A DNA stretch of 64,000 nucleotides, taken from Sipunculus nudus. Its lineage: Eukaryota > Annelida > Sipuncula > Golfingiida > Sipunculidae. How positions within the stretch are numbered: position 1 is the first letter of the stretch; the number at the start of each line of letters is the position of its first letter. A program made the translations under genes and the position numbers. The notes beneath the pieces were generated by a model. It searched no databases, was not told the origin of the DNA, and saw only the letters and a program-made list of their open reading frames with translations. Location: contig CM049318.1 of the NCBI GenBank assembly GCA_026874595.1, forward strand, positions 51,116,750 to 51,180,749, given 5' to 3'. Below, in pieces: positions 1 to 25,358 of this stretch.

Positions 1-20
1 ATGGTAGAAAGAACGATTAG
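1..20 (+). CDS. 3' tail of an upstream TLCD3-like paralogue (partial)
   Basis: These bases match the last codons and stop of the complete TLC-domain gene further on (23811-23830). Read in the same frame they give the tail GRKND followed by TAG at 18-20, against GRKNG and TAG in the downstream gene. The rest of this gene lies upstream of the window. The similarity continues for about 1.5 kb into the 3' flank, so this is a true duplicated gene end and not a chance match. Whether the upstream copy is intact cannot be judged here. Confidence 0.7.
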
Positions 21-1520
21 ACTCATGAAACATTTTTATTCATGGTTTATAAAAATAACCCAAAACAAACAAAAGAAAAAGGTTTTGATGAAGAGTAAGA
101 AGATTACCATATCCAGATAAAATGTACAGTTTCACTTGCAATGGGGACACCAGTGTAAGCCAAATGGCAAAGAAGTCAAGAAGAAACAAAAAATCACGCT
201 GCATATTTCAGTTCAGGCCGATTTTTTTGTGTGTATGTTAAAATACGTTATGATTCAAATTGACATTGCTATCATGTAAAATTCAGAAAAAAGTTTAAAT
301 TAAGAATAGTGTATTTATTCCCTTCAATTGATGATTTAAACTACCATGCTTAATTCAGTAAAATATATAAATGTATTCCCTGATTTGAGATGCACTCAAG
401 GAAACAAGGGTCCCAAGGAAAGGTTCCAAATGGACACGTAAAGGTTTTTTAGACCCCACGAGCATTCCTTTATGGAACCTGTAAGGTTTTATCCATAACT
501 TATTAAAAGGTTCTGAGAAAACTCTTCAAGGTGGATTGAGTGGGTTCTTGGTGGAACCCATGCTGAAGGGTTTTTTATAGGACCTTCATTGAAGGTTTAT
601 TTCAGAATATAAATCAAGGAAGTCATTTGATAGACAATATGAAAAAGTCTAAAAGTATTCCTAAAAGTGGGGCATTGCAAGGATCATAGCAAAAGAAAAA
701 TCGTATTTCAAGCTTAGTTATATCCTGTATATATGATTCATCCTTGCAAATGCAAAGAAAACACGAATTTATGGGAAGCACATGTTTTCGTTTATTGGTT
801 TTATTTGTAAAGATTAACTTGTGAAACTGAACATCAACCGAAAAGCATTAGCAAGTTATACATGTATGCACCTAACTAATGTATTTTGGCATTGGTATAC
901 TGGCTAACATTTCCAAGTTGTGGTTTTGATGTATTATCTGCAACAATTGCTTTTAAATACTTTATATGAACCAAATCCTATTACATATTTGATTTAAAAC
1001 AAGGATAACTGCTCTTCAATTTTGACGGGATGTTCCAGGTTCACATGACGTCAATCCCTCCTCTTTATTTCATATAAATTGTTGGTCATTCATGTGAAGA
1101 GAAAGTCTCCGCCTGAAGCATCTGTGAGGTGCGTACCTGTCACGGAATTAATATTTGCGTATTAAACTTTCAAAACGGGCTTACGCTGTATAATGTATAG
1201 AGTCTGATATATCTACATTATAAATTATGTAAACATTAACATAATATAGGTTCGGTAGGATAAAAACCGCTTCAAAGAGACAGGGATACAGGGATCCATT
1301 TTCAAGACAGAACAACTGTGAACATGTATTCCATACTTAAGGGAAGAAGGTTAGGGAAGTGGTGTCGTTTTCACACAAATTCAACGTAGGACTGATGTGA
1401 TACCGAGCTATGAACCGTGCAAAGAACTTTTTGTACAGTACTTGATAGGTTCAATATACACTATATATACTAGATATATATTGTATTGCATTATTCGTTG
1501 AGATACTGTACAAACTATTT
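21..1520 (+). repeat. Duplicated 3' flank, copy 1 (partner 23831-25255)
   Basis: Long colinear, gapped similarity to the region after the complete TLCD3-like gene. Shared landmarks, in the same order in both copies: a stretch beginning AAGAGTAAGAAGATT, the tract around GGTTCTGAGAA, the block CATGACGTCAATCCCTCCTC (about 1044 and 24657), the block ATCTGTGAGGTGCGTACCTG and the block TGTGATACCGAGCTATGAAC. Similarity fades near 1520. No coding signal was seen. Confidence 0.8.
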
Positions 1521-1529
1521 AGTCCATGG

Positions 1530-1829
1530 GCTAGGAGGGGTCACCGTGCACCCCCTCTGCGACTATATGACATAGGTATATTTAGATCCCCAAGTATCTC
1601 CAGTTAAAGAATTTAGATGTTAACATTGATTATTTTGGGATACACATCCCTTTTAGGCCATTTAGAGACAACCGCCTCTTTACGCACACCACCCGCGGAC
1701 AGGTAGCCTTGATAAGGGGGTAGGGGTATGTGAATACTTATAGCTCGCTCAATATTTGACATATTCACTTCAAACTGCATTGCATATGCAAATACTTTAG
1801 AAATTCACTGATGAAAACAATTTGATCAG

Positions 1830-1927
<98 letters not shown>

Positions 1928-2945
1928 TGATTAACAATTAATTACGATATTAATAGAATATCGTAAAAGAATATTAAATTGAAAACTTTTTCTTTATTTT
2001 TTCCCCAAACAATATTTTTCTTCGAGATGATGTTGACATTTATCAAATTCTAGTGCATAAATACATTAGTTCCTGTCACCTGTACACATACTTTTGATAA
2101 GATTATGAATATTTTGCCATTTGCACATGCAGTGAATGACCCATTGTCCATTCTAATGTCAGCGAAGAGTTAAAATCTGTAATATTTCTTCAGGATGTTT
2201 TATTAATATCATAATTGAATGGTTCATCACCAAAAACCTGTTAGAAATATATATGATTATATCTATCAGTGACTTTTCCGAATGTTTTGCAAATACAATA
2301 CAGTTTATTTTAAGTAAATATGTAAAATATTAAGCGGGCTTAAAGAATTTTATACCCCTTTCCCCGTAACAAGGCTACCAGTCCGCAGTTGTCGTGCATA
2401 ATAACGGTTTTTTTTTTCTATCTCAGTTCCAAAAAAGGGTTGTGTATCCTAAAATAATTAATTTGACCATCTTAATTCATTAATTGGACAGATTAAGGGA
2501 TTAAAAAATCGTATATAAAAAATTCCGAAAGGGGTGCACAGTGACCCTTCCTATATATTGGATTAAATATGATTATTTTTGTAAAATTATTATATGTAAA
2601 AAAATTCTCAAGAAAGGGTTTCCTTTAATTCTAAAACCAATAAACACGTTCATGTCCAGACAAATAACAATTCATAGTAACAAGGAAGTATCATGGTGAA
2701 AAATAAATGCATCAGGAGAGGAACATGAAACACCACATCCGTCTTATAAACAAGGGATACCATAAAATAGAATTAACAATTGGTCATTCATTGCAGGTGT
2801 ATATTGTCAAATATTCATACATTTTAAAACAGAATTTGTAGGAATGTCAGGAACTAATGTATTAATGCACTAGAAATTCAGAAATGCAACATCATCTCGA
2901 AAATAAACTGGGAAAATGGAAGAAAAAGCTCTTAAATTCAATTTT
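1530..2945. repeat. Interleaved inverted-repeat block (A, B, A', B')
   Basis: Two different sequences each occur once direct and once inverted. Arm A (about 1535-1740) is matched in reverse complement by about 2345-2560; it shares GGATACACA (inverted TGTGTATCC) and GGTAGCCTTG (inverted CAAGGCTACC). Arm B (about 1975-2160) is matched in reverse by about 2765-2945; it shares GATGATGTTGACATTT-like sequence and ACATTAGTTCCTG. A (TA)n array lies between A and B. The order A-B-A'-B' is not that of a simple foldback or a simple nested insertion. Confidence 0.7.
1835..1925. repeat. (TA)n microsatellite
   Basis: About 90 bp of almost pure TA, with one AAATA interruption, inside the interleaved inverted-repeat block. 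Confidence 0.95.
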
Positions 2946-3194
2946 TTTATAACTATGTATATATGTATGTATTATATGTGTATAAGCATGTTATATGTTA
3001 AATGTTCAATTGCATTTATTTATTTATATTTGTACCATGGCCCACAGGGCCTTTTTGTATAATAAATTCTTATTATTATTATATATATTTAGATACCGGG
3101 GCTTTATGTTTCTTTTGAGATATAGACCAAGTATTAAAACTGCCATTAAAGTCTTATTATGTACATCATAGAAAGTACTGGTTGAATTTACCTT

Positions 3195-3370
3195 CAATCC
3201 AAAGAAATCTGCATTCTAATGAATGGAAGTCTCTGCCTTGTTGGGATCCCTGTTTTCCCTGTGCTCCCCGCCCCGTATTTTGCATTCACTTACTTAGCCT
3301 ATTATTCGTGCGTAAATGGCCGTACATTTTTTTTATATTCCTTGATGTTGTTTTTGGAACATGATTCATT
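3195..3370 (+). mobile_element. Copy of the GCCTCCGCC interspersed family (diverged)
   Basis: Begins AGAAATCTGCATTCTAATGA and continues through TTTTGCATTCACTTACTTAG and a block ending TTCCTTGATG, the same order as the other copies at about 18003, 25808, 31150, 33957, 42627 and 47058. The 3' half is missing. The 60-codon open frame that crosses it is a chance frame inside the repeat. Confidence 0.65.
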
Positions 3371-3788: not shown

Positions 3789-4134
3789 CTGTTCTTCCTA
3801 GGCTTAGTGTGAACAAGCTTTGAACCTTTATTAACTTCCAAAGACTACAACAAAACATACGTGACCGATATTTTTCATTCAAACAAAGACGTTGGCAATT
3901 TGAACCAAGATTCAATTTGTTTTTTAATGCCTGTTGTCATTAATAGATACAACTTATAGTTATATCTTATATTATATAGTGATACTTATATTATACATAA
4001 TACATTCATATGCTTATTGTTATCAGTGACTTTTCCCAACTATTTGCAAACATAATGCAGTTTCCATTGAAGAATGATAATTAACAATATAGGGGGTTTC
4101 CCGGGGAGGTCATTCTGTCTTCGCTGTCCTTGTT

Positions 4135-5090
4135 TAGAGGGAACCGTATGGCCAGTCAATGATCATGCGATTTACTAATAGGCCTTTAGTACAACTAAAA
4201 TATTTAACAACTAAAGAATGGTTGTCTGACTAATATCAAGCCAGACAAATAGTCACGCTCTGTTTTACATATTTGGTGACAAATATAATAACTAACGGCC
4301 TAACGGGTCAAACAGGCAACTTTGATGGATCATTTTAAGTGAGTCAAATCATTTTGCAAGAGTTGCCCAATTCACTCCACCAACTTTCACGCGCACGCAC
4401 ACACATGAAGGATATGTTGTTAAGCTCTCCTATTCTGATACGAAATAAATGTCCAAAACAGGTGGTGCAGTGAGCGGGGGCATCATTTTGTATTCTCCTA
4501 CCAACGTTCTATATATTTAATTATTGAAATTGTATTACTATATTTGCATTAAACATTCATAGACCTGAAAAGGCCTAATAACCAACATACATACACACAC
4601 ATACACAATTTAACATCACTTTATTTTGTACCAAATGCACTTGTTAAAATTACATTTTTCAGTTTGACCTGTTCTGTGTTTTTAAATGCGTTAAGAGTAT
4701 TTTCGCCACCTGTCGGCAGGGATTCATAACCATACCGAATGGTAGATATGAAATATTATGAAATCTTCTTATTGCTGCCACACGTAAATCATTAAAAATT
4801 CTGGCTAATATAACTCTGCTTCAGATAATTTTCTCAAAATATAATCGTAACTTATACGTGAAAATATGTATTCTGATTGTGAAGTGTGTATCACGGATGC
4901 AAAATATTCTCCGCACAGAGGATGTATTTATGTATAATGTCAAGGATAACCCTTACCAGTGGTCATCGAACCATTTTCAGTAGGAATATGTAAATTCCAC
5001 TTTTTAAATAAATAGAGGAAATATAGAGAATTTATTGAGAATATCCACTTCAAAGAAAACCAAAATAAAGGATTTGATATGTTAAAATAT
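4135..5090 (+). repeat. Arm of a 1-kb inverted duplication (partner 27010-28020)
   Basis: The reverse complement of 27010-28020 follows this segment almost throughout. Shared blocks include GTACAACTAAAA, TAACAACTAAAGAATG, CACTCCACCAA, GGTAGGAGAATACAAAATGA (inverted here), CACCTGTCGGCAGG/CCTGCCGACAGGTG and ACCAAAATAAAGGATTTG. The two arms flank the complete TLCD3-like gene, about 22 kb apart. No transposase was seen; the segment could be a long non-autonomous element or an inverted segmental duplication. Confidence 0.75.
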
Positions 5091-5950
5091 CAATATGAGT
5101 GTAATAAAATTTGCCCAGTTTCTGAATCCTAACATAGTGCCGAAGAGAATGTATGGAAAACATGAATAGTTTGCCCCTCCCCTTCCAGCGCCTCCTCGGC
5201 TATTGTTGAACAGCAGTAGACGCGTCATACCCGGGGCGCTTCCAGAATTTACAGAAAGGGAGGGGGTGGGGATGCCGGGGATGGAGGGGGGGGGGGTGCG
5301 AAAATACTTTCTGGCCATATATATATATGTGTGTGAGAGAGAGGATGTGCTTGTGTGTGTGCGCACGCGCGTGTGTGAGTGTTGGTGCGTATTTGCAAGA
5401 ATAATCGCTCATATTAATTTGTAACTCTGGTGTTTTGAGGTGTCCGTCAGCGGTTATATTAGATGTGGGTTTGTTGTGTGTGTGGGGGGGGGGGGGGGAT
5501 GTCAGACGCCAAAACCTTTCTGAAGGGTTTCAGACCATTTCTGAATACCCCTTTTCCGGACAAGGGGCCCTTTATTTAGGATTAATAACTAATCCGCCTG
5601 ATTTTGACCCCGCCTTTTCCTAAATACAGGATCTGCCCCTGTTTATGCGTATATATATGCGCCTATTCGTCAACTCAGAGATTCAGGGTAACATGACGTC
5701 ACACCACGGGTGGGTTATAGGCTTTATCTCAGGACAACCTTGAGCTGAAGACCAGTCTCGAAGACCGAGTCTTGATAAGCCGATCAGGTTTCAGTATGCA
5801 AGACTATGAGAACAGTCGATAAATATTCGATTGTTTTGGTTACCAAAGGCAGGTCCCGGCCTGAATTGACAGAATTTTAGGGGAAGATTATAGTATTATA
5901 CCGGTTATTAAATAATGTATTACAATTATTAAATACTGTATCACCATACT
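5090..5950. other. Low-complexity and composite repeat stretch
   Basis: Poly-G runs (about 5285 and 5487), GT/GC-rich tracts and two short stretches ending or starting in a GGATCC/GGATCTGCCCC-like sequence of a kind also seen at 15537-15675. Open frames of 60-94 codons here, on both strands, follow the simple-sequence tracts and are not credible genes. Confidence 0.6.
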
Positions 5951-6537
5951 TGAATAATCATGAGAGGAAGAGGGGTTGGGTGCCCCCTTCCAGGTGTAAT
6001 TTTTTTTTAAATGCAAGTTTTAATCGTGCAATCTGGGGTAGCTTAAATGCATTATATTATTTTTTGGTAAGGTCGAAAAGGCCCACCCCCAAGCCGCCCC
6101 TGGAGTCGTTCTCTTGTGAGTCCCAATCTGCACAGAGTGGCAAATTCACATAGAACCCAGTGTAGTTACCGAACGTTACGCTAGGGAGTGCTGCTGTATA
6201 CACTTCTAAACCTCCAAATCCCTGCAAATACTTCAGGGTATCACAGTTTTCGGTTTACCCAAAAGAAAATTGAACTTGACTTAAGATAAACCCCGGGGGT
6301 AGTCTGAGCGTAATTTCAGGTTTCCCCCGCACAGTTCAGATTACCTTCTCACTGACTGACCAAATGACGAATTCTTATGTTTAAACAGGTTATTTGAATA
6401 CACCAGGTAAAAGATGCTTGATTTAAAAGCTGAAATCAATCTATATAAATAAAAAATTATCGCAAAATGCTAATTAAATTGTTAATTATATTTCTGTTGA
6501 TTCATACTCTCCATCAAAGTGCATGACACGTAACATG

Positions 6538-6539
<2 letters not shown>

Positions 6540-6585
<46 letters not shown>
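6540..6585. repeat. (TA)n microsatellite
   Basis: About 45 bp of TA. It is followed by a unit beginning TTAACCTAAGTTGGTTCCAG that recurs after the next TA array, so array plus flank form a tandem pair (6540-6660 and 6661-6785). Confidence 0.95.
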
Positions 6586-6587
<2 letters not shown>

Positions 6588-6657
6588 CCTAAGTTGGTTC
6601 CAGTGTTTGCAGTATAGTGCTCGATACAGCTAAGGTAGAGCTAGGGAGTGCTGCTGT

Positions 6658-6660
<3 letters not shown>

Positions 6661-6725
<65 letters not shown>
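6661..6725. repeat. (TA)n microsatellite, second of a tandem pair
   Basis: About 65 bp of TA, preceded by CTAGGGAGTGCTGCTGTATA, which also occurs at about 6181, and followed by the same TTAACCTAAGTTGG unit seen after the first array. Confidence 0.95.
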
Positions 6726-6728
<3 letters not shown>

Positions 6729-6789
6729 CCTAAGTTGGTTCCAGTGCTTGCAGTATAGTGCTCGATATAGCTAAGGTAGAGCAGCTTAA

Positions 6790-7365
6790 CTAAACGTTAA
6801 GCACGCTGGAGCATCGTGTTATTACTCCGAGTTTCACGCCTGTGACGTTCACTGCGAAATGATTTATTTTGGTTGTTGTGCCGAGTTTTGAATGGGCCAC
6901 TTGCCAATCCGATGTACTGAGCGGTGGCAAGTGGCCCATTGAAAACTTGGTGCAACAACCACAACAAATCATTTCGCAGTGAACGTTACGAAAAGGAAAC
7001 GGAACTACCGAAGCACATTTGGACCCTGAAGAGAAAACAAATAAAATATTCTACCACCTGGGAAATAATCCAACCCTCTTACACAATGAAACGAACCTCG
7101 GACCAATGTAATCTCTGTATGGAGGAGAAATACAGCATACTGCACCTCAAAAGCGACTAGTCAATAATCCTATTAAACAGGCGAAGTGAATAAATTTCCA
7201 AATGCCCAGACCTGAAGCCACCGAACCGTGTAAAAAGAAAGTAACAGTTATTGCTTGGTCCCGAACAATCGTCAGTTACCTAATGATCGTCCGGGTGCCG
7301 ATACCGGCAACGGCGTGAAACTCGGAGTAATAACACGATGCTCCAGCGTGCTTAACGTTTAGTAT
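6790..7365 (+). mobile_element. Penelope-like element remnant with inverted ends
   Basis: The segment carries the decayed C-terminal part of a Penelope-like polymerase (6954-7225) and is bracketed by inverted copies of one sequence: 6792-6837 (AAACGTTAAGCACGCTGGAG onward) and 7317-7363 (the reverse complement). A second inverted pair, 6849-6912 and 6925-6987, forms a tight foldback around GCAAGTGGCCCATT. Penelope-like elements often show inverted or tandem terminal copies and 5' truncation, which fits. TA arrays abut both ends. Confidence 0.7.
6954..7225 (+). pseudogene. Penelope-like GIY-YIG endonuclease domain, decayed
   Basis: The frame reads SERYEKETELPKHIWTLK, then a spacer, CNLCMEEKYSIL, and after an in-frame TAG at 7158-7160 LLNRRSE and another stop. 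KHIW..LK, CxLCxEEKxxI and LLNKRSE-like motifs, in this order and spacing, are typical of the C-terminal GIY-YIG-type endonuclease region of Penelope-like retroelement polymerases. The N-terminal reverse transcriptase part is absent. Two in-frame stops and the truncation make this a dead copy. Confidence 0.75.

Positions 7366-7408
<43 letters not shown>
7363..7408. repeat. (TA)n microsatellite
   Basis: TA array directly after the inverted end of the Penelope-like remnant. The minus-strand open frame crossing it (7276-7572) is an artefact of the repeat. Confidence 0.9.
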
Positions 7409-7410
<2 letters not shown>

Positions 7411-7574
7411 TAAATAAACATAAAGAAACAAATATTCTGAGGTGTTTATCTGAAACCGTAGGTTATGATCTAAAATTGATACAACGGATATCACCCCACT
7501 GAGCACACTTGGACCCACAAGAGTGCGACTCTGCTGTTGAGGGTTCTTGGGCGTCACAATCTGACCCCCCAAAT

Positions 7575-7925
7575 GGCACTGCGGCTTTTACATACACCAG
7601 CGGTGTAGGTAAAATTGTTGTGCTTAGGGTAATGTAGTCCATTCAAGTATGTGAGATAAGAATTGTTTCAAGGCAACTTACATAAACATGGAGGTTTTTG
7701 AGGTAAGGAATTCACATAATAAGTAATGTTTTTTTAAACATACGCTTGTTAAATATAAATAAAAGATGTTTCCTTGAAATGTAACAAATTTTGATTTTAA
7801 AGTTAAACAGTTGAGACAAGTAGTCCAGGCCGTCACATAGTGCCTGTGAGGAAGAGGTTTGTTTTGAGTAGACGACCTCTGTCGGAAGGATGCGGTAACC
7901 ATTTCCAACCACGTAAAACGTACAC
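7575..7925 (+). repeat. Interspersed repeat, copy 1 (partner 50025-50380)
   Basis: Direct, gapped similarity to 50025-50380. Shared blocks in order: CAAGTA.GT.AGATAAGAA, AACATGGAGGTTTTT against AACATTGGTGTTTTT, GTTTCCTTGAAAT, GATTTTAA.GTT, CAGTTGAGACAAGTAGTCC and ACGACCTC. No coding content was found. The minus-strand open frames here are not supported by anything else. Confidence 0.65.
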
Positions 7926-8187
7926 ACTGTAAATAACCTTACAGTTCGAAAGATTTTATTTTCTTATCAGAATCTGTTTAACCATCTATACACGAGATAT
8001 GATTTTATATTTTGTATCCTAGCAGACAGGCGATAATTTGTTTTGGGTTTTGGGTTTTATATGCAGAAGTAGCCCTATAAATCTGTCCACAAATGAGGTG
8101 TTTGTCAATGTCTCTTGTATTTCAGTAATGTCTTTACATATATTTTCTCTACGGATTTCTCATCTTTCTTTCGTACCTAATTTTCAG

Positions 8188-8352
8188 GATTGCTTGGACC
8201 CCTGTGGTCTTTTGCGGTACACAGAAAACGTGGGAATAACTCTGGCTGCGGTGCCTTTCACAATACCGTCACACTGTACCGTAGCAGTGGGCTTAGCGTA
8301 TATATTTAATTGTTACTGGATTTGTTTGATTATTTACCTCTCATCAGTCTGA
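8188..8352 (+). pseudogene. Divergent TLC-domain C-terminal exon or exon relic
   Basis: The frame ending in TGA at 8350-8352 contains RYTENVGITLAAVPFTIP and a following hydrophobic stretch ending CYWICLIIYLSSV. This aligns with the last exon of the complete gene (RYSQDTGLSLLQVPMTLP, then VGFFIVPPMNFFWLVSIV), keeping RY, the G, VP.T.P and the hydrophobic final helix. A good acceptor (TTTTCAG at 8181-8187) precedes it. The part of the family exon before RY does not align, and I found no partner exons upstream, so it is either a relic or the last exon of a differently spliced gene. The frame itself has no stop. Confidence 0.5.
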
Positions 8353-8916
8353 CTGAAACAGTTTTTGCTGCCATCTGGTGTATGATATTAAAACTAGCTT
8401 TCGTTTTCTTTCAAAACGGTAGAAATTGCCAGGACATTTAATATAGAAAGAAAAGTTGAAGATTCCTGGACGTCCAGGCACAATGTCGGAGAGTCCCATC
8501 TGAGCATGAATCGCCCTAGTGGGAGAGTATATGTGAAATTAGATTTGTTTTTATTTTAAGTCATTATCGTATCATTATATGGTTAGAAAACGTGATATTA
8601 TATGATCACTTGATTACAGTGAAATGTCAGAGTCAGTTGTCAGCGCAGTGTCTATACAACTGACTGGTTTGTTAAGAGAGGCGACCATGATTTGTGACTG
8701 CTTCAAGGGCAATCTTTGATTATATCGGTCCTGCGGCCAGAAATTTGCGCGTCCAACAGGAAGCTTGGACCCCAAGAGCCTAGCGTCCAAAAGAGATTTA
8801 ATAGACTTCTTTACTTTAAATTGTGATGAAGTTCGCTGTACAAAAGATTACCTGTGATGGTTACATCTAACGTTGGTTATTTCGTTAAAATAAAGGTTTA
8901 TAAAAGCGTATTTACA

Positions 8917-8919
<3 letters not shown>

Positions 8920-8972
<53 letters not shown>
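8920..8972. repeat. (TA)n microsatellite
   Basis: About 50 bp of TA. It accounts for a minus-strand frame made of Ile-Tyr repeats. Confidence 0.95.
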
Positions 8973-8979
<7 letters not shown>

Positions 8980-9549
8980 AATTAAACCAAGGGTATAAAA
9001 AAAATAATGAAATAAGTTAATGATAAGATACATTTTTTTTTTTTATAATGACCAGCAAAGCTAAAACTGGAATTAAAGTTTCTTAAAAAAATTGTGTATC
9101 ATCTCAAGCTATAATTTCAAATTGGTTGAACACAAAGTTTTCCAGCAAAACCACCACAGCACATGGACTTATCATCTTAAATTCTTCCTTGAGAGTAAAC
9201 ATATTTTCAGTATGTCTGTTTACCATAAAAAGCCTGTGAGACCAGAAGTCTTGCGCATGGGCGATAATTCCCGAACAAAGAGAAGAGAATGAAAGGAGAA
9301 ACACCGGTTTAAAGCTAGAACAACTTTCGGACAGGCCCGTGCGACATCAGCCGGCTTCGCCGCAGTGGTGTTGTTCCTGCCGCGATCATCAGGCAACTCT
9401 GGTAAATTGCCTTGTAAGTCAATTGTGAAAATACGTAACTAACACATTTTGTTGCCAGAAAATGTGTAAGCAATGTGTTTTTACAATTAAAATAATAATT
9501 TCCATACCATGATGAGCACTTTGAAACGATTTCTTGAACAAACAAATTC

Positions 9550-9550
<1 letters not shown>

Positions 9551-9593
<43 letters not shown>
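9551..9593. repeat. (TA)n microsatellite
   Basis: About 40 bp of TA. It accounts for two overlapping minus-strand frames of Tyr-Ile repeats. Confidence 0.95.
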
Positions 9594-9595
<2 letters not shown>

Positions 9596-9818
9596 TGTGT
9601 GTATATATAATATTCACATAAGAGCTCGTCCAAAGTGCAACTAATGAAACAAAATGCAACAAATCCTGACAAAAATGGTTGTTTCAGGTATCTCTTATTT
9701 TATGCGCAGGATTTTGCGTGGCATTCTGATTCGTTTTAGGCTCAAGCCATGTTCGTTGCTATGGGAACTGTACTTGTTGAACCCTGGCTTGTAGAGACGT
9801 GCTGCCCATTGAAGACTA

Positions 9819-9926
9819 GAAATTTCGGGTCTGTTCATGCGCCATGGGCGCGCGCATATTGTTGGGTTTGGAATGTTCTTGAATATGGAAGTTTCTGGGC
9901 TTCGGATGGAAAAAAAGCTATAAAAA
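9819..9926 (+). promoter_or_regulatory. Heat-shock-type promoter: HSE cluster plus TATA box
   Basis: Visible: GAAATTTC (9819-9826); a perfect three-unit heat-shock element GAATGTTCTTGAA (9871-9883); a further GAAGTTTC (9888-9895) with a TTC at 9901; then TATAAAAA (9919-9926), about 20-40 bp downstream. Heat-shock factor trimers bind alternating GAA/TTC units spaced by two bases, and close HSEs followed by a TATA box are typical of HSP70-class promoters. The inferred transcript would start just downstream, but a solo LTR begins four bases after the TATA box. No chaperone coding exon was found in the following kilobases. Confidence 0.5.
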
Positions 9927-9929
9927 GGG
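9926..9929 (+). repeat. Target-site duplication AGGG of solo LTR 1 (left)
   Basis: AGGG precedes the LTR and is repeated at 10784-10787 after it. It overlaps the end of the TATA-box region. Confidence 0.7.
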
Positions 9930-10783: not shown

Positions 10784-10787
10784 AGGG

Positions 10788-13994: not shown

Positions 13995-14001
13995 TATATA
14001 A
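13995..14001 (+). promoter_or_regulatory. TATA-like box before the TLCD3-like gene
   Basis: TATATAA about 240 bp upstream of the chosen start codon at 14238, in a locally GC-richer stretch (13830-14060). It would place a start site near 14025. The segment 14018-14055 shares a short block, ATGATCATGTCAG followed by CCCGGTACCCTT, with 19939-19975, so it may partly derive from a repeat. Confidence 0.3.
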
Positions 14002-14368: not shown

Positions 14369-14618
14369 GTATGTTGTTATCAAATTTCATGCTCTGATTT
14401 CTTATGAATGGTTATATATCTATTTCTTATATAAAGTTTTCTAACCATTTTAAATAAGTTGGTTACAAAAATTAAAAATACTGACGAAACTGACATAATC
14501 TTTCCGGAATTATCACTTTAATGAATTTTATCTAACAAAAAAGTTTTAAATTTAATCTTTTTTGTTATTGCATTGAGATAACTTAAATTTGCATTAAAAT
14601 TTAAAAAAATCACCTACT

Positions 14619-14682
<64 letters not shown>

Positions 14683-15430
14683 TACTACTACTTCTACAAC
14701 TATTACTACTAGTATTTCTACTGTAACTACTAAGACTACTACTACTACAACTACTACTTGTATTTATAATAATAATTATTATTATAATAATATTAATATT
14801 ACTTGTGGTCTTACCGTCGCAGTAAATTATCCAGTCTAAACGGTTCAGAATTTTTTTTTAACTTTCATTATGCGCTGCAGATACTTTTCCTTCTGTTGCA
14901 TGCATTTCGGGGCCCGTCTCAATCATGGTACATAACAGAATGATAACATAAGATGAAACAATAAATATATGATAAATAATGGGGAAACATGGAAATAAAA
15001 ATAATTGTGGTAGTAATACTACTGCTTACAAGAAGGTTAACAGTCCTTGCTGCTTATATTAACCAGATAAACCCTAGATATGGTCTCATGTTCCCTTTCG
15101 CATCAACTCATTGGTTTTGCTTAACACGCGCAGTTGGAAGGGTATGTTTGATTGCGTTTTGTTTAATATGTTGTTTAACTTCCCATTAAGTGACAGAGTC
15201 TCTTGCTTTAAACACTTTAAAAAGATCTGCACAAGTATGACAAAACTGCTATTGTGGCCATGTCACTAATCAATGATGTGTGACAAAACCAGAGTAATGC
15301 TCTGACGACCCTGTCACCATCCGGCCATGAATTAAAAATCACATCGTGCGGCAGGCAGCTAGTCAATGATTATTGCTAGCACCAATGTATAGTGAATGCG
15401 AAATTGCAAAGTTCAAGTTTGTTGTGTTCT

Positions 15431-15527
<97 letters not shown>

Positions 15528-18163
15528 TATACATCAGGGGCGGATCCAGGATAGGAAAAGGGTGTGGGGGTTGGGGGTGGGGGGTCCAACGCAGAAGGAC
15601 TAATGATAAACCTAAAATAAAGGTCCCCGGGTTCGGAAATGGGGGGGGGGGGGGGAGGGGGTCCCGGATCCGCCTTTGCATATTTAAATACAGTGTTCAT
15701 ATATCTATAAATCTATACATACATGCATGTACATATTTATAAACATGCATCCGTTACACATTATGTAAAATATATTAGGTTAGTATATACAAATATCAAA
15801 TATGTATTATTTATTTAGTTAGAAAATAAAAGTACATTATAATATAATAATAAAAATAAATAATATTAATATTGAAATATACATTGCTGTGGGAAGGAAA
15901 ATTGGTGTATGCGGGGGGGGGGGGGGGGTTCATTACCCCCTCTCTGTGTCTCTGTTTAGTTTGTTCCTATTTTGAATATCAATATTGTTACGGAACCTAA
16001 TATCAACAGATCACGTATGTGTAATGAACATAAATTTTGCAATGGAGAAAAAAAAATCAGATTCTGTGAAATATCTAGGGGAATGAATAAAGAAGTCAGT
16101 GTTTTTTTGTTAACAAATAACTATAATTTATTCTTAAAACAACCCTAACATTACAGCTAGTACACCAAATCAATACAATTGCACAGTACAACAACAGTAT
16201 AACAGCGAATCAATATAATCACACTGCCTAATAAACAAAGTGCACAGTACCTGGATACTACCACTGTCACAGCGACAAGCCCTTTAAAATGTATAAGCCG
16301 GATGAATAGTTCACCCCAATTCTCTCGGAGAATAACAGTCCAATGTAAAGCTCTTGTAACAATCCCGAAAGTAAACTGAAGACCAAATAAGATTCGTCAC
16401 AAATCCAGAAGAAAATCTATAATTGCCGCACTTATCAGAATAGGTCCAACCAAGGAGTTTACAGGGATGGAGTATCAAGTGAGAGTCTGGCCGTGTCGGA
16501 TGTTGCTGACGGGGGTCATATAACTCGCTGCTCAATGGCACACAGAGATGCCGCTGATAAGCCCGGCGCTAATTGATTCAGCGCGAGAGACCACCCTTCG
16601 GCGTGACTTCGGAACAGCTCGTTAGTTCCCGGAGACCACCAATGTGAACTAACGCGAAATTTATCTCCGGTAATACTTAATATAAATATTTAAACAATCA
16701 TAAGTTTGAACACCATATTTCCATATGTGTGGGAAACGTGTGTGAAGGTTTCGTTGCTAATGACGCCTGAGCTATAGCTTGGCTGCGGTACATATGGGCG
16801 ATAATAAAAGAACAACGCCGTCAGTGACAGAGCGGACAATGGCTCGCTGTTATCCATCAAAATGAAAGTCATCCGAGCATAAGCTAAAAATTTTTTTTTA
16901 TCGTCGGAATACTATTATACATGGCCAATTATTAATATAAGTCAGAAGTGTGGGAACTGATGGAATTGTTTATAATTCCGAAGTTATTCAGGGAAAGTAA
17001 GGTTTACACTTACCAGTCGTCCGTCATGAATCACGGCATAAGTTGATGTAGAGTGTCCACATCTATCCAAAAATTGGTCAAGTGATTCCTCAACACGAGA
17101 CCTCTCTAGATATATTTGATGCGCATAATTCTTGGCAAAACAAACCATTTGCGCATTCATAATTCCGGTCAATGTTATTCCAGTGATTTACTGCTCAGTT
17201 ACTGGATATATAGCTCTCCGCTTCAGCGAGCTACAGCGGACCGCAGAAGTAACATCTAGCAGGCTCGCTAGACACCGCGGCACAATAGGCGTACAATAGA
17301 GTTAATGGGCTTATCATGTCTTAATTGCAATTAGCGCACGACTGACACTCGCGACCTGGCAGGGCTTCTGACAGTTGTTACTCCAGTCCTGTAAACTCCT
17401 TGGTCCAACAAACAAACTGTACGCTGGAATATTCTCTCACCTCCCTCTTGGCTTGGCTTTAAAACACAGCCTCTTTATATAAATTTTCACCTCAAGCCGA
17501 ATAACTAAAGAACCTAACATAATAAACACGCTCAAAGAATAAACTAGAACAAAGAATATTCTGTATCTACACGCCAGGGTTCAAAATGCGAATTAAACCG
17601 AGCCTGCAACATCCGGCCAGGCGAGGCCGCTACAACACGAGCTACGCGTGGCACACAAACCAAATGTCAACAACGCATGGAGCACCCCTGCGCACAATAA
17701 AAGAAAAACATGCAATACCTCTGCACACAATAAAAAGGGCACCTGTAACAATATCTAAAATGTCCCAATTGTATTGATAGCTTTCTGGTTACTGTCAAGA
17801 GACTTTGAAAATGCCAAAACCATAGGTATTGGCGGATGTGTGCGCTCTTTAAGTGCCTTTTGTTTGTATATCTATTTACAGGATTCTCGCCTGCCTGCAC
17901 GGCATCGTTTCTTCCACAGCTGGCGCCATGATTATCATGGAATGTAATCACGATACATTAAACGCCAGGTGAGTTCATCTCTATATTTCACTGTTGTAGA
18001 CTAGAAATCTGCATACTAAGGAATGCTAACCTCCGCCATGTGAGGGGTCCCTGTTGGAAGATGCAGCCAAAACCGTGTTTGCAATCAATTATTCGGCCCA
18101 TATTCCGAGGTTCATTGGTTCATAATGGAATAATTTATGAACATTACCAAAATCTAGTCGATT

Positions 18164-18220
<57 letters not shown>

Positions 18221-21200
18221 CATATTTAATAGGATGCAGTAAAAAAAGTAAACTGTTTAGATGTTACAGAAGGTACTTAATTCAGTCCTCCTCTGAATAA
18301 ATTGTATTCCTTAGAAAAATACATTGGGTTCTTAAATTGTATACGTATTGTTTAACTCTTTGAGGCGTTTCAAAGGGGTCCAATTATTTCAGGTATTAAC
18401 GTTTAATTATACCAATAAAAGCCTTTAAAAGTATTTTATTTTATGATCAGAGGTTTGACAGAATTGCAAATTTGGTGTGTCCATTCTTAGAAATAGGAAC
18501 TACTATTATCAGTGTATATTTCAAGGTTCAGTTTACCACAATTATGACAGTTGTAAACGAAAATGTGCAGTTGTAATTTTGGATCTGTGCAGTATCAAAA
18601 TTTAATTTTTAACGCTGTCACAGAGTGAAAAACACGACTCCTTTATCCCTACCAATAAATTGAAATGACCGACAGATAGACAGACAGAACATATTGTCGG
18701 TATATTATGGATTATATGATTTTCAGAACGATAGCTGGGAAGTTGTGGCCTGTAGAATGACATACATCATTCAAATGAACAAGCAAGCAGACAAAGGTGA
18801 CAGCAACAGACAAACATAATGGCACCTTGAAACATCTGAGATAATGGATTAGTAGAAAATCTTAAGAAGAAGTTAGAGATGAACAAAATTAGCTATAGTT
18901 TATGTAGGTAAGGTTTCGAGATATGGCCATAAAATATGTTATGTTGTATTTTTTGAGTGCAGCGCCCCCTAGTGGCCATTTCCCAGGAAAAAAAATAATA
19001 ATAATTTCGAGAAATCAGTGAAGGACATAAAATATTTCAGTTTCAAGACATGTCCTGCAAACTTGTGGAATATAGGGCATCTTTAAATGAAATCTCTCAA
19101 AATCTCGTTTGACGAGATATTATGCAAAATTTTGCGAGACTTATGATAAAATCTTAAATCATTAATAAAATGCAACCAGATACAAAAACTAGTCCTCTCT
19201 AGCTTTAAAACTGACAAAGTTAGAAAAATAAGACCCATTGGTTTCGAATATTATGAATTTTCCCCACAAATGCGTTATCTTGGTTACAGCAGATTTGAAT
19301 TTGCTACGCATCAGAAGAAAGGCCATGGAATGAGAAAAATAGCTTTAGGTTTTCTTGACAATTATAGACAAAAGATATGACGAAAATAAAATTATGATGT
19401 TTATGGATGACCTTGACCTTTGACTTACATTGACCACAAATAAAGGGCTTCTAGGACTTTGATTGTCGATCAGTTGTATAAGTTTGAAAGCGATTGCTGC
19501 AAAATCGTGGCTTGGTGAGTGGAGACAGACAGACAGACAGACATAGAAATAGACAGGCATACGCAACTTACCAGCATGCTTGCCGAAATCGAATATTTCC
19601 GGCAAGCAGTAAGGCTATTCACTATACAATTGGCTCTGGTGTGAATTCGCAAACATTAATATATATCTGTAATGATAAAAAAAATTTTGTCATAGTTTCT
19701 CTCATGATCCATTATAATCATATTATATAAATAACCTATAAATACAAACTTGAAATCAACCAACAATGGTTAAACCTAAAAATTAAAAAAAGTTTTGTCT
19801 CTGATATAATCGGTCCCCAGCCCTTCAACTGCTTAGAGTTTGGCTGACGGTGACTTTGTTTATTAATAGTTCTAAAATGTTCATAAATCATACCCTGCAT
19901 TTTATCATAACTATATGAATGAGCAGAATGCCAGCCACATGATCATGTCAGTGGAACTACTCACCCGGTACCCTTGCACCTCCGTGGGTGCACGGATGCA
20001 TAACAAAATCATACTTACAAACCAACAGAGCTTAGATACCAGGTATTTTAATTTCAAAGGAGACACCAACCCTGCAGTTATCAATATATGCAAATTATAA
20101 AGTGCACCTCAGTGCTCTAATTAGTAGGGCTGGGCAACATTATCGATATATCGGTTTATCGGATACGGTGTTTCGAATATTGCCTATCGCGATACAGTTT
20201 TAAAATATCGATATTTCACGATATCTGCTAAACATGTCTAAAACTGATTTTGAAGTAAAAATAATGTTTCTGTTGAAAAAAAATGAGACATCTGAAGACT
20301 TCTGAATAGGTTTGTATTATTGACATACAGGCTTAAAGTGAAAATCGCCTCCCAAACGTTTAAGTAGGCCTGATAATCCAAAGACAAAATATACGTCCCA
20401 GGAAATTTGTATGTCTGTTTGATGACTTATAATATACGAGAATATTTCTATACAACAAAAAGAAGGTCGCAATAAATAATTTGTCATTTATATTCTCTCC
20501 TCACATCTAATTTTAACTGCCAAAGTCAAGTAAACAGTACTAACCGTTGTTTGAGAACTTCATAATAAGTTTATGTTTAAGAACTTGATATGTGGTACGC
20601 GGCTGTGAATGTAACACTACCTCTACCTCTCCCCGCTACCCCATAGCCTAGAAATCTCCCATTGGCGAGTTATTTGCACACGTAAACCGTTCTTTGAGTA
20701 CTATCAAATACCCTGTATTATATACCAATCAGCGTTTAGAAAAAGACAAGTTTGAGTGATGGCTAAATTTACGAACATTGGCGAAGCAAGCTCAGTTGGT
20801 CTAGGGCGGGGGTCCATGGGCGGACTATAACACTATACTATACACACACGTGATGAGTCCACTTTTATTGAGCTCTTAGATATACTTAATTATGTAGGAA
20901 TTATTATTTACAACGGTCTTTTATCAGTGGGTAAACATGCTAAGGGTAAAATGGTAAAGGTTTTAAAGCGATATTAATGTTTATTTTTAACTATCATCGT
21001 ATAAACCATCTTTGAATAACTCTCCGAAAATTCGCCGTGGACTCCCGTCTCCCCGTGGATTCTCCGAATTTTAAGCCCGCCTTACACGATGCAACTTGTT
21101 CTACGACATGTCGCTCAACATGATCAGTTCATACACACAGCGATATGTGCTGCAACATGCCCTGCAAAACTATGATAAAAACTACATGCATCTAACATAA

Positions 21201-23830
21201 CTTTCAGGATTCTACCATTTTTCTGACTTGTAACTTTATATTAATTAATATTTGTGTGTGTGAGGAAGATGTATTCTGCGTAGGACATATTCTATCTCAT
21301 TTTTCTTTAATAGTATAGAGTTATAAGAAAAAAGGCATGGTTCCTTTTGAATAGCTATACTTCTTCTGAGCTTCTGAGTTGACCCTGCAAAACACATGGC
21401 ACCCTCCTCAGACACGGTGAAACCATGGACAGTCACTTTATCACAGGACAACATGACCAATCATAATAATCGTTGACCGTTTCCCCGAAGCTTGGCCTGA
21501 TGTCGCTCGACAAGTCGCACCGTTTATGGCGGACTTTAGACAGACCCATTAAACTGGAATAACTTGAATGTGCACTGCGACCTTGACTTCGCAATTCGCA
21601 ATCACGTATGGGTCATAGTCATGTCAATCAGTTGGTTATATTATAATACTATGCGTTCTAGTATGCTAACGTTCACAATTATTGTATTTTGTCTTTCAGG
21701 AGTTGGTTGACAATGCCGATCTTATATTTCTCCATCGTGTATTTCCTTCACGACCTCTGGGCCAAAATCCAGGTTACGGTACACATGGAGTGCTCCACCG
21801 GCAAAAGAACGTTACTGGAAGCTGCCATGGTTACCGCCAAGTCCGATTACCTTGTATTCGCTCACCATATAGCATTCGCCTTATTCTTTCTGCCAGTGAC
21901 GGTGGTAGGTATTTTGTTATGCCACGAAACACAATAATAATAATTTTAAAATTTATATTTATGTTAAAATCTATAACAGATTATCTTTGATAAGTTGTTT
22001 ATGGAAAAATGACAATACGACGGTACCTGAATTATAGTTCAAAAGAAAGTGATATACATTAATGATCTCATTTTAACAAACCAGGTATTATTCATGCTTC
22101 ATTGTATATCTGAATGACATTAATACGCATCTGTCATCAGAACAAAAAATAATCAGAGATGCATGATTCAGCGACCCTCTTTGGTGCCTATTTGATGAAT
22201 AACGGATTATTAAATCCCAACCTGCCACTCAAATCCGAGGAATAAGATGCAAACAACACTTTTCACACGCCGTCTGTACAAAACACGGGACAGGCTAAGT
22301 TATCGATGGCAACGCTAAACGTTTGGTAAAAACATCGCACCAGACGTCCGCGTAAAACAAGTGTACGCCGGTCATTTAATTGGTTCAATTGCCTTATTCA
22401 TTATTCATGAAATAAACACCAGAGGGGATCAAGGAAACAAGGTCTGTGAAAGCGTAGCCTCATACTTGGTAGTATGGAGAGATTTAGTTTTGAATTCATG
22501 CTAACAATGCTGCATATTTTTAATTAAATATAAATCCACAGGATCACTAACTGATGCCCAGAAAGTGTCTTGATTATAAGATAAAATCAACATTTTCACA
22601 TTTCTAGGCCATCGATAGACTTCACTATTACGTGGGCTGTATGCTTTTACTGGAAGTAATAATGCCAGGTCTGAGCATTAGAAAAATTCTCATAAAGGTG
22701 AGTTTCTGTGTACACTTGATATTCTTTAATATTCTGTTTGTCCTCTACGTGTTAGTCCATCCACCTGTTTTTACGTTTACCTGTTTGTCCGTCAACCTGT
22801 TTGTTCATATACACCTGTGTGTCTACTACCATATACCTTTTTCTCCCTCTAACCGTTTGTCCGTCTACATGATTGTCCGTCTACCTGTTTCTACGTCTAA
22901 CTGTTTTTCAGTCTAACGGTTTGTCCGTCTATTCCTGTTTCTCTGTCTTCCTGTTTCTTCGTATATTTGTTTATACGTCTAAAAGGTTGGCTGTCTACCT
23001 GTTTCTCCGTCTACCTGTTTGTCCGGCTACCTGTTTTTCTGTCTTCATTTTGTCCGTTTTCCTGTTTGTCAAATTATTTATTAGTTCGTCTACCCGTTTG
23101 GCAATCTACCTTTTTGTCCGTCTTCTCCTTTGTTTACATAAATAAGTCTTCAGTTTTTTCCGTCCATACGTTTGTCAGTCTATAAGTTTGTCCATCTATA
23201 TGTTTGTCCGTCTACCAATAAATCGGCCTTTATACCAGTTTGTAACTACAGTTACCGAAGTTTTAAACCAGCTGTAGGAGCCATTGGAGTTAAAGGGTAT
23301 TTTGACGTATACAGGTCAGGAGGAGTAACATTGTTAAACCTGACCGTCTGGTTCGTATGCACGAGGATAATTTTTTAATTTTAATTACATCTTGTGAAGA
23401 AATGTGGAACTTGTGCATTTTTTAATTTTAACATTATATATATCTAAATATAGAGTGAGTATGGAGTGCAAATGTTTGCAATCTTAAAGTGTGTTCAACT
23501 GTAGAAGAGACACTTCAATAGGGAATCTTTTAAACATCATTTGCTTTGTCGTTGTAGTTGAATATGAAGAGCCACCCACTGTATGTCGTCAATATTGCTA
23601 TTCTGGTCGTTACGTTTCTGGTATTCCGGATAGCCATCTTGCCGGCGATGTATGTACGATACAGTCAAGACACTGGTCTCTCGCTGCTACAGGTCCCGAT
23701 GACGCTACCTCTCCACGTCAACGTTGGCTTTTTTATTGTTCCTCCTATGAACTTCTTTTGGCTCGTTTCCATTGTCAAATGCACTATTTCGGATATGAAA
23801 AACAGAAACAATGGTCGAAAGAACGGTTAG
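14238..23830 (+). CDS. TLC-domain membrane protein, TLCD3A/B (FAM57)-like, five exons
   Basis: Exons 14238-14368, 17882-17968, 21700-21904, 22608-22697 and 23558-23830 join in phase (2, 2, 0, 0) into 261 codons plus stop, close to the roughly 257 residues of vertebrate TLCD3A. All introns are GT-AG with good donors (GTATGT, GTGAGT, GTAGGT, GTGAGT). The protein has about six hydrophobic segments. Family marks visible: the TLC His pair at residues 128-129 (VFAHHIAF), GCMLLLEVIMPGLS, and near the C-terminus GLSLLQVP followed by a polytopic end, as in TLCD3A. The family acts in the ER/Golgi and TLCD3B is linked to ceramide synthesis; the catalytic role is debated. Exon order follows the known protein throughout. 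The loop joining exons 2 and 3 looks a few residues shorter than in vertebrates. A tandem paralogue lies upstream. Confidence 0.88.
14622..14682. repeat. (TAA)n microsatellite in intron 1
   Basis: About 60 bp of trinucleotide repeat, followed by a diffuse (ACT)n-like stretch to about 14760. Confidence 0.9.
15432..15532. repeat. (CT)n-(TA)n compound microsatellite in intron 1
   Basis: CT repeats to about 15470, then TA to about 15532. Open frames on both strands across it are Ser-Leu, Tyr-Ile or Glu-Arg repeats and are not genes. Confidence 0.95.
15537..15675. mobile_element. Short inverted-end element, GGGGCGGATCC...GGATCCGCC
   Basis: Starts GGGGCGGATCCAGGAT and ends GTCCCGGATCCGCC, so the ends are inverted copies of GGCGGATCC, with a G-rich interior containing poly-G. 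Similar G-rich stretches with partly matching ends occur near 5165-5290, 5480-5640, 57365-57470 and 59810-59870. It lies in intron 1 of the TLCD3-like gene. Confidence 0.45.
16451..17402. mobile_element. hAT-like MITE nested in solo LTR 2 (about 952 bp)
   Basis: Perfect 15-bp terminal inverted repeats: CAAGGAGTTTACAGG at 16451 and CCTGTAAACTCCTTG ending at 17402, extended imperfectly by TGGAGT/ACTCCA. The host LTR sequence GTCCAAC is duplicated on both sides (16444-16450 and 17403-17409; 8 bp if one shared G is counted), where LTR copy 1 has a single GTCCCAC. A 7-8 bp duplication suggests a hAT-type origin. No transposase was recognised; the interior may hold a captured exon (see 17011-17172). 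Confidence 0.75.
17011..17172 (-). other. Possible captured exon inside the MITE
   Basis: On the minus strand an ATG at 17172 opens a frame of ordinary composition (for example RSRVEESLDQFLDRCG and YAVIHDGRL) that runs into a strong donor, GTAAGT, just past 17011. The MITE has no need of a splice donor, so this could be a piece of host gene carried by the element. No family was recognised, and a chance frame is possible. Confidence 0.25.
17882..17968 (+). CDS. TLCD3-like gene, exon 2 (residues 44-73)
   Basis: Acceptor TATTTACAG ends at 17881 and donor GTGAGT begins at 17969. The 87-bp exon starts with the third base of the Lys codon and reads ILACLHGIVSSTAGAMIIM then ECNHDTLNA, ending with two bases of an Arg codon. 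This matches the second hydrophobic segment of TLCD3 proteins, which has a similar HA-V-A-G pattern. It has no ATG of its own at a useful place and is too short to stand out as an open frame. It was found by phase and family pattern. Confidence 0.8.
18003..18165 (+). mobile_element. GCCTCCGCC-family copy, truncated
   Basis: Begins AGAAATCTGCATACTAAGGA, then CCTCCGCCATGTG and the TTTGCAATCAATTATTCGGC block, with an internal deletion, and breaks off at AAATCTAGTCGATTC where a TA array starts. It is in intron 2. Confidence 0.65.
18166..18215. repeat. (TA)n microsatellite in intron 2
   Basis: About 50 bp of TA, directly replacing the 3' part of an interspersed repeat copy. Confidence 0.95.
18600..19560. 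repeat. Composite interspersed repeat region in intron 2
   Basis: Contains GACAGA-type simple repeats at both ends (18665-18690 and 19525-19550), two separated copies of a TTTCGAGA/TTTCAAGACATG-type block and a GACCTTGACCTTTGACTTAC stretch of the half-site-rich kind common in invertebrate repeats. No coding sequence was recognised; the frames on both strands end in the GACA repeat. Confidence 0.4.
19660..19920 (+). repeat. Interspersed repeat, copy 1 (partner 28090-28330)
   Basis: Direct similarity to 28090-28330. Shared blocks in order: ATAACCT(A)TA.ATACAAACT, TCTCTGATA, GGTCCC.AGCCCTTC/GGTCCCTTGGCCCTC and ATACCCTGC. Non-coding. Confidence 0.5.
20127..20225 (+). mobile_element. hAT-like terminal sequence fragment in intron 2
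   Basis: AGGGCTGGGCAACATTATCG followed by repeated ATCGATA/TATCG motifs resembles hAT transposon ends with AGGGCTGGGC-type termini. I did not find the opposite end in the window. Confidence 0.4.
21072..21539. mobile_element. MITE with imperfect inverted ends in intron 2
   Basis: Left end TAAGCCCGCCTTACACGATG, continuing CAACTTGTTCTACGACATGT, is matched in inverted form by the right end (complement CTAAAGTCCGCCATAAACGG, then TGCGACTTGTCGAGCGACAT). The ends are imperfect but colinear for about 40 bp. No target duplication is clear. It ends 161 bp before exon 3. Confidence 0.5.
21700..21904 (+). CDS. TLCD3-like gene, exon 3 (residues 73-141), core of the TLC domain
   Basis: Acceptor TTTCAG ends at 21699; donor GTAGGT begins at 21905. 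The frame reads SWLTMPILYFSIVYFLHDLW (third helix), a polar loop VHMECSTGKRTLLEA, then AKSDYLVFAHHIAFALFFLP. The adjacent His pair in a helix start is the signature of TLC domains (CLN8, TRAM, ceramide synthase and TLCD families). Phase 2 in, phase 0 out. Confidence 0.85.
22608..22697 (+). CDS. TLCD3-like gene, exon 4 (residues 142-171)
   Basis: Acceptor TTTCTAG ends at 22607 and donor GTGAGT begins at 22698; exactly 30 codons. The translation contains HYYVGCMLLLEVIMPGLS and RKILIK, matching the GC...E.STP...LG.ILI segment of TLCD3A/B, where vertebrate proteins have F(F/L)GC.(F/L).AE. Confidence 0.85.
22740..23230 (+). repeat. Degenerate minisatellite in intron 4
   Basis: About thirty irregular copies of a short unit like GTCTACCTGTTTGTCC, with spacing near 16 bp. 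The plus-strand open frames covering it (Val/Leu/Phe/Ser-rich) are translations of the array and not exons. It begins about 40 bp after the exon 4 donor. Confidence 0.85.
23558..23830 (+). CDS. TLCD3-like gene, exon 5 (residues 172-261 and stop)
   Basis: Acceptor GTTGTAG ends at 23557. It reads LNMKSHPLYVVNIAILVVTF, a hydrophobic helix ending ILPAMYVRY, then GLSLLQVPMTLP, a last helix VGFFIVPPMNFFWLVSIV and a basic tail NRNNGRKNG before TAG. Vertebrate TLCD3A shows the same order, including an identical GLSLLQVP. The basic tail could be an ER-type cytosolic end (inference). Confidence 0.88.
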   Translation: MNMKSHPLYVVNIAILVVTFLVFRIAILPAMYVRYSQDTGLSLLQVPMTLPLHVNVGFFIVPPMNFFWLVSIVKCTISDMKNRNNGRKNG

Positions 23831-23864
23831 ACTCATTAAAAAACTATATATACCATGCATTATG

Positions 23865-23870
23865 AATAAA
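23865..23870 (+). terminator. Polyadenylation signal AATAAA
   Basis: AATAAA 35 bases after the stop codon of the TLCD3-like gene, a short 3' UTR if used. Confidence 0.45.
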
Positions 23871-25153
23871 AAAGGCAAAAATGATTTGATTAAGAGTAAG
23901 AAGATTTAAATGTCCAAAGAAAATGTACAATTTCACTTGGGACACGAATGTATGCCAAATGGCAAAGGAGTCATGATGAAAGTGAAAAATCACGTTGCGT
24001 TGAACCTTTAAGGTGATTTTGGACCTCTCGAAGGATCCTTTATGGACCTGTTAGGTTTTATCCAGAACTTATTCAAAGGTTCTGAGAAGAAATCTTCAAG
24101 GTTCTTCACGGTAGAATGAGTGTGTTCTTGGTTGAACCCATGCGGAAGAGTTTTTTTTATAAAACCTTCAGTGAAGGTTTATTTAAGAATAATAGTCATA
24201 TCTTACGCTTAATATAAATTCTGTTTCTATTCAGAACAAACTGATTTGACAGACAATATGAAGAAGTCTAAAAGTATTCTTCATAAAATGTGGGTAATTG
24301 CAAGGACCATAGCAAAAAAGCGTATTTCTAGTTTAGTTATTTGTTGTATATATGATAAATCCTTGAACATGCAAAAAAAAAAAACCCAGATGTAAAGGAA
24401 ACACATGTTTTCATTTATTTGTAGCGATCATCTTGTGAAACTGAACATTAACTAAAAACCATTAGGAAGATTTATATGTATGCACCTAACTAATATATTT
24501 TGGCGTTTGTATAGTGACACGCAGTTCCAAGTTGTGGTTTTGATTTATTATCTGCATCAATTGCATTTCAATAATTCTATGAACCAAACGTTATTACACA
24601 TATGATTTAAAACAATGATGACTGTTCTTGAATTTTACGTGATGTTTCAGGTTCACATGACGTCAATCCCTCCTCTATATTTCATTTTAATTGGTGGTCG
24701 TTCATGTGAAAAAAAGTCTACGCCTGTAGCATCTGTGAGGTGCGTACCTGTCACGGACTTTGCGCATTTGCGTACTAAACTTTCCAAACGGGTTTATAAA
24801 CGTATCATATATCACGTCTGATATAGCAACATTATAAATTATGTAAACATTAAAATAATATATGTTTGGTGGGATAACAACCGCTTCGAAGAAACAGGGA
24901 TACAGGGATGCATTTCAAGACAGAATAATTCAGAACATGTAGTCCAGACCTAAGGGAAGAAGGTTGGGGAAGTTGTGTAATTTACACAGAATTTCGACGT
25001 AACATTGATGTGATACCGAGCTATGAACCGTGGAAAGAAGGGGATTGTGGGTAGGTCAGGTTGTGTACAGACTGGTTACGTATGAAATTAATAAGCCGTC
25101 AGTGTCGTGCAAAGCTTTTGTACAGGTTCGATATATATATATTAACTAGATAT

Positions 25154-25157
<4 letters not shown>

Positions 25158-25197
<40 letters not shown>
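25158..25197. repeat. (TA)n microsatellite
   Basis: TA array, with another short one at 25202-25213, inside the duplicated flank. Confidence 0.9.
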
Positions 25198-25200
<3 letters not shown>

Positions 25201-25358
25201 ATATATATATATATTGCATTGCATTATGCGTTGTGGTACTGCACAAACCATTGTGCTTGCAGCAAATGTCATTTTGGTGTCGAAAGCGGCTAATTTGATT
25301 TTATTGCAGATGGTTATGCGCCATGCAATATTTTATTATGTATGCCATGTATACTTTT

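Follow-up and report, generated by a model that had tools for sequence, protein, structure and literature searches.

A window of 64,000 nucleotides of the Sipunculus nudus genome (assembly GCA_026874595.1, 1.43 Gb in 153 contigs; contig CM049318.1, here C13, positions 51116750-51180749, forward strand) was analyzed together with the 80 kb that precede it and the 20 kb that follow it; positions upstream of the window are given as window coordinates extended below 1, zero counted. The locus holds a group of genes with the TLC domain: copy A, which ends at window position 20; copy C, complete in the window; relic B between them; and genes D and E upstream of copy A. Copies A and C are very probably the products of one old tandem duplication, reaching from intron 3 of gene E through gene A and its 3' flank, with a putative inverted templated insertion at the junction and with copy C the extra, probably selected, copy of a predicted acyltransferase gene. 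The features concerned are as follows.

-11370..-11240, -8789..-8703, -2805..-2601, -1898..-1809 and -252..20, plus strand: five exons of copy A, from exon matches upstream
1..20, plus strand: last codons and stop of copy A
21..1526, plus strand: 3' flank of copy A, the colinear counterpart of 23831-25255, with dispersed repeats overlapping 420-902
1513..2968, unstranded: dispersed self-complementary (foldback-like) repeat, from the genome search
4134..5385, plus strand: block at the unit junction
5387..8130, plus strand: start of the second unit, with patchy homology to intron 3 of E (-27005..-19781); junction at about 5385-5396
8134..8352, plus strand: relic B, the last exon of a TLC gene of the E type; its first codons are absent, and the frame is broken by one base near 8213; from tblastn
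8353..14237, plus strand: intergenic part of the second unit, with patchy colinearity to the intergenic DNA between E and A
14238..14368, plus strand: copy C exon 1
17882..17968, plus strand: copy C exon 2
21700..21904, plus strand: copy C exon 3, which carries the His-His (HH) motif
22608..22697, plus strand: copy C exon 4
23558..23830, plus strand: copy C exon 5 and stop
23831..25255, plus strand: 3' flank of copy C
26933..28020, minus strand: inverted counterpart of the junction block

Copy C (14238-23830, plus strand) comprises five exons with GT/AG at every border and encodes a protein of 261 residues. Six splice combinations are open (257-261 residues), and the 261-residue model was chosen because copy A and gene D are also open at 261 residues. 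The protein matches the Pfam TLC domain PF03798 (TRAM_LAG1_CLN8) with E = 2e-18; the scores of A, C and D are 62.9, 67.5 and 58.9 bits against a curated cut-off of 24.6, the match extending from residue 44 or 45 to 245, and in the alignment the mid-domain HH is present at 128-129 in A and C and at 129-130 in D. Degenerate 16-base tandem repeats at 22734-23214 take up a large part of intron 4 of copy C.

Window bases 1-20 encode GRKND and a stop, and copy C ends with GRKNG and a stop. An earlier note on this DNA had read these bases as the last codons of a paralogue and had supposed the upstream gene to be complete, both of which were confirmed: all five exons of copy A were found upstream, beginning 11.4 kb upstream of base 1 and open across 261 codons. 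The two proteins are identical at 229 of 261 residues. The comparison of nonsynonymous (dN) and synonymous (dS) divergence that the note proposed gave dN/dS = 0.24 (95% interval 0.155-0.389) for A against C, with Nei-Gojobori values of 0.274 (0.189-0.374) for dS and 0.067 (0.044-0.091) for dN from 2000 codon bootstraps; the YN00 values were 0.251 and 0.068, respectively. When the 32 residue differences were polarised with D and a further TLC gene on contig C7, 6 were assigned to A, 5 to C and 21 to neither branch. We infer that copy C is an additional copy of a probable lipid enzyme on which selection has persisted.

In order to delimit the duplicated unit, -40000..5100 was compared by BLAST with 1400-45000. 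The search returned 39 rows, 31 of them above 80 bits, and 21 of those 31 are colinear, spanning -27005/5387 to 1426/25039 and covering introns and intergenic DNA. The first colinear row lies inside intron 3 of E, homology to E beginning at about 5387-5396. The blocks are ordered and colinear, as in a tandem segmental duplication. A single such event would have doubled a stretch of 20-30 kb from inside intron 3 of E through gene A and the 3' flank of A, leaving two apparently intact copies with a broken third relative between them. Since homology begins in intron 3, the second unit would never have possessed exons 1-3 of E, and exon 4 would have been lost later. A tandem cluster with a period of about 24 kb had been proposed previously; the tandem duplication stood, but the one-gene period overlooks both the second type of TLC gene in the unit and relic B between A and C.

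Divergence was measured over 20 blocks, namely 19 of the 21 colinear rows and the inverted block, the short rows -20713/7751 and -10964/15191 being omitted; the p-values of the block comparisons are nominal and per test. The overall noncoding Kimura two-parameter (K2P) distance was 0.169 (9066 sites, 15% difference), with single blocks ranging from 0.109 to 0.43. The block around exon 1 of A and C changed more slowly (172/1392 sites differing vs 1198/7674, p = 0.0017), and some blocks in the introns of E were also low (0.10-0.13 of sites differing).

Gene D (-54935..-49107) is intact, with 261 residues and a five-exon plan like that of C (Pfam E = 8.7e-16); its protein is 31.5% identical to that of C and 32.7% to that of A. 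Gene E (about -28579..-19100) resembles D, with 69-71% identity where exons 1, 3 and 5 could be matched, and is now broken, with frame breaks relative to D in exons 3, 4 and 5. The last exon of E is the nearest relative of relic B. With the copy C protein as tblastn query, 8083-8334 was matched at E = 7e-6 with composition correction off. The piece in the open frame scored 11 standard deviations above shuffles, none of 2000 being as high. The preceding piece, which is in a different frame, scored 4.5 standard deviations above, with 4 of 2000 as high; both pieces had been picked after the match was known. Compared with E, relic B has neither exon 4 nor intron 4 and begins after the first codons of exon 5, so that the counterparts of -19781 and -19359 join at 8130/8134; it is also one base short near 8213. 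The acceptor-like site that immediately precedes the relic is that of E exon 4, placed there by the deletion. Earlier exons of relic B hidden in 1500-8126 were considered and rejected, with no convincing match among those listed and with homology beginning in intron 3 of E.

The last exons of B and E were compared over 197 columns with D as outgroup. Seven changes fell on B, five on E and one on neither branch, numbers that do not differ (p = 0.77). By codon position (first, second, third) the changes were 5, 0 and 2 on B and 0, 0 and 5 on E, small numbers in each case; changes exclusively at third positions are expected on the E side if E remained functional after the duplication. The last exon and 3' side of the E/B pair also diverged more slowly than the other blocks (93/786 vs 1277/8280, p = 0.007).

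Directly upstream of the unit junction, 4134-5088 matches 28020-27034 in inverted orientation over approximately 1 kb, and a weak continuation (5295-5395 with 27033-26933, 67%) extends to the junction. A genome search with 4134-5395, in which simple repeats and very common words were skipped, gave 18 matches: self, 27034-28020 and 16 others, all short and none longer than 180 bases. These results suggest an inverted templated insertion, in which a template switch of the replication type at the junction would have placed an inverted copy of 27034-28020 between the units. The principal alternative is that the pair arose by a later inversion, or as an unrelated transposed copy, outside the duplication event, which the differing orientation of the block would fit. 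The genome, however, contains no third long match, the weak far end of the block touches the unit junction, and the block is as diverged as the flank (K2P 0.180 vs 0.177); with 150/940 sites differing it also does not depart from the other aligned noncoding blocks (p = 0.44). The templated insertion is favored because it explains both ends, whereas an inversion, whichever unit it affected, would have to break at the junction itself. A later or separate origin is a credible, if minority, possibility.

Several points weigh against the duplication with templated insertion as set out here. The block could have been inverted later, its orientation being read from one genome. Identity within it is somewhat clustered (variance p = 0.0175), which makes it an imperfect neutral yardstick. 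Blocks found by BLAST favor conserved DNA, so that the absolute divergences are low estimates, and this bias may explain why dS (0.27) exceeds the noncoding K2P (0.17).

The 3' flank shared by A and C was evaluated as a possible conserved element. The colinearity of bases 21 to about 1526 with 23831-25255, described in the earlier note, was recovered as two BLAST segments (1-202 with 23811-23998, 73%, E = 2e-27; 447-1426 with 24017-25039, 79%, E = 0) and, beyond them, as patchy homology through AT repeats to about 1526/25255. The note had raised the question of whether the flank holds 3' untranslated region (UTR) or enhancer function, or whether the duplication is simply recent. Selective maintenance of the 1.5 kb, for a role as 3' UTR or as an enhancer common to both copies, would fit the length of the colinearity and the stretches of identity, as long as 30 bases, of which one contains the palindrome TGACGTCA. 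The flank nevertheless diverged like the rest of the unit: 154/978 sites differ in 431-1426 vs 1216/8088 in the other aligned noncoding blocks (p = 0.57), and with the UTR part included (21-1426) the difference, 193/1145 or 16.9% vs 14.8% elsewhere (p = 0.07), is if anything in the direction of faster change. Identity is unclustered, with a longest run of 30 as by chance (permutation p = 0.61; variance p = 0.77). An assembly search with 1-1500, in which 40 of 158 candidates were scored, gave at least 45 matches: self, two rows for the flank of copy C and 42 short ones, all of which fall in 420-902 and represent dispersed repeats inside the flank. The homology ends at about 1513-1526, at the start of the dispersed self-complementary repeat; a query of 1500-4133 gave at least 220 genome matches (40 of 617 candidates scored), those listed lying in approximately 1513-2968. 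With site differences and clustering both ordinary, the UTR or enhancer interpretation was rejected as improbable. The flank is not specially conserved and resembles ordinary ageing DNA. A merely recent duplication likewise disagrees with the noncoding K2P of 0.17. An apparently regulatory tail of 1.5 kb is thereby reduced to ordinary decay, and the position at which a repeat inserted can determine where "conserved" DNA seems to end.

The approximately 230 bases upstream of the start codon (-11600..-11371 and the counterpart before 14238) changed slowly, with 9.4% difference over 224 sites in a stretch chosen post hoc. As a candidate promoter, this pre-start stretch would have more in its favor than the 3' flank has as a candidate enhancer.

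That A and C are haplotypes misassembled in tandem, a known source of tandem near-copies, was rejected as very unlikely given 15% noncoding difference over 9066 sites, a dS of 0.27, many unequal insertions, an inverted block and a junction within the intron of another gene.

A fuller course of events, which we offer tentatively as possible but doubtful, is that a template switch doubled A, with a dead 3' piece of E remaining between the copies, that E was selected afterwards and died later, and that the cluster so exchanged a type-2 for a second type-1 enzyme. The locus shows cleanly, for a small set of genes that probably encode lipid acyltransferases, how a duplication yielded a truncated by-product and was followed by a loss. 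It is ordinary gene-family turnover, and no general view is changed.

Further TLC genes were sought in the surroundings and in the whole genome. Exon queries against 25-84 kb and -80..-55 kb at E < 0.1 gave, among the matches listed, only 42632-42510 (E = 0.003) and 73994-73821 (E = 0.009), both containing stops. The copy C protein, searched against the genome at E up to 1, gave 16 matches, 15 in the cluster described here (relic B included) and one exon on C7. The C7 locus carries exons 2-5 of a further TLC gene, split between the same exons as the cluster genes (Pfam E = 4.7e-22); several exon borders were left open in the model, and exon 1 was sought at this locus and not found. The TLC family model gave 12 exon matches in the genome, 6 over the cut-off, with other loci on C13, C17 and C4. 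The 9 kb at C13:18456081-18465094 contain four TLC-domain matches, of which two pass the cut-off and two are weak; this may be a further cluster of TLC genes on C13.

Other elements of the window include a dispersed repeat family of approximately 150-350 bases in both orientations (25784-26145, 32603-32847, 34965-35106, 40550-40772, 42679-42835 and 47135-47355), which resembles a short interspersed element by size only; another repeat with copies 71-86% identical (9920-10784, 15976-17751 and 34172-34964), one of them in intron 1 of copy C; a tandem array at 51716-52131 with a 17-base unit and a 152-base higher period (93% matches); and a single tRNA-Arg (TCT) called by ARAGORN at 48101-48173 on the minus strand. 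Rfam gave no families over the window and the PDB sequence search no matches; the prokaryote and viral contig collections gave three and one pattern matches, respectively, none confirmed. A weak Pfam scan with X at stops, which missed relic B, found no families in all three plus frames of 1-9900 and 25300-64000, all three minus frames of 25300-40301 and one minus frame of 40300-55299. Among the top-ranked results of a literature search, TLCD3 duplication in invertebrates was not found, and nothing wider is claimed.

TLCD3-like is a provisional, motif-based name: the C-terminal motif of A and C would resemble that of TLCD3, and the C7 gene may, on motifs of the same kind, be the nearer TLCD3 relative. 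The TLC domain is common to A, C and the vertebrate TLCD3A and TLCD3B (FAM57), and TLCD3B is described as a non-canonical ceramide synthase (PMC10387349). According to two further reports, TLCD1 and CerS6 transfer acyl groups via an acyl-histidine (PMC11838012, PMC11919693); residues H54, D98, H117 and E145 matter in TLCD1 (PMC11838012), and the Lag1p motif of CerS6 comprises His211, Asp239 and Asp242, that is, Asp at +28 and +31 (PMC11919693). The conserved H, D, H and E residues of the TLCD1, CLN8 and CerS6 enzymes there described have counterparts in A, C and D, where HH takes the place of the second H: H50, D91, H128-H129 and E157 in A and C, and H51, D92, H129-H130 and E158 in D, numbered by hand with equivalence by motif. 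Unlike CerS6, copy C has L156 and I159 at the places of the two Asp, with E157 between them and no Asp in 146-163, so that, judged by spacing only, it lacks the Lag1p Asp residues of a canonical ceramide synthase. Unlike TLCD1, A and C have a D91-to-HH loop longer than the D98-H117 interval. Because TLCD1 and CerS6 use an acyl-histidine and the motifs match, A and C are likely to be multi-pass membrane acyltransferases with a histidine nucleophile, predicted to acylate a lysolipid or sphingoid base. Duplicated TLC-domain genes are described for maize (PMC6862079) and Toxoplasma (PMC10946778), a plant and an apicomplexan; those cases apparently concern a different branch of genes from A and C. 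The inverted nearby DNA at the unit junction resembles the inverted templated insertions of tandem duplications of the microhomology-mediated break-induced replication (MMBIR) or fork stalling and template switching (FoSTeS) type; unlike those cases, the event here would be old and is read from one genome.

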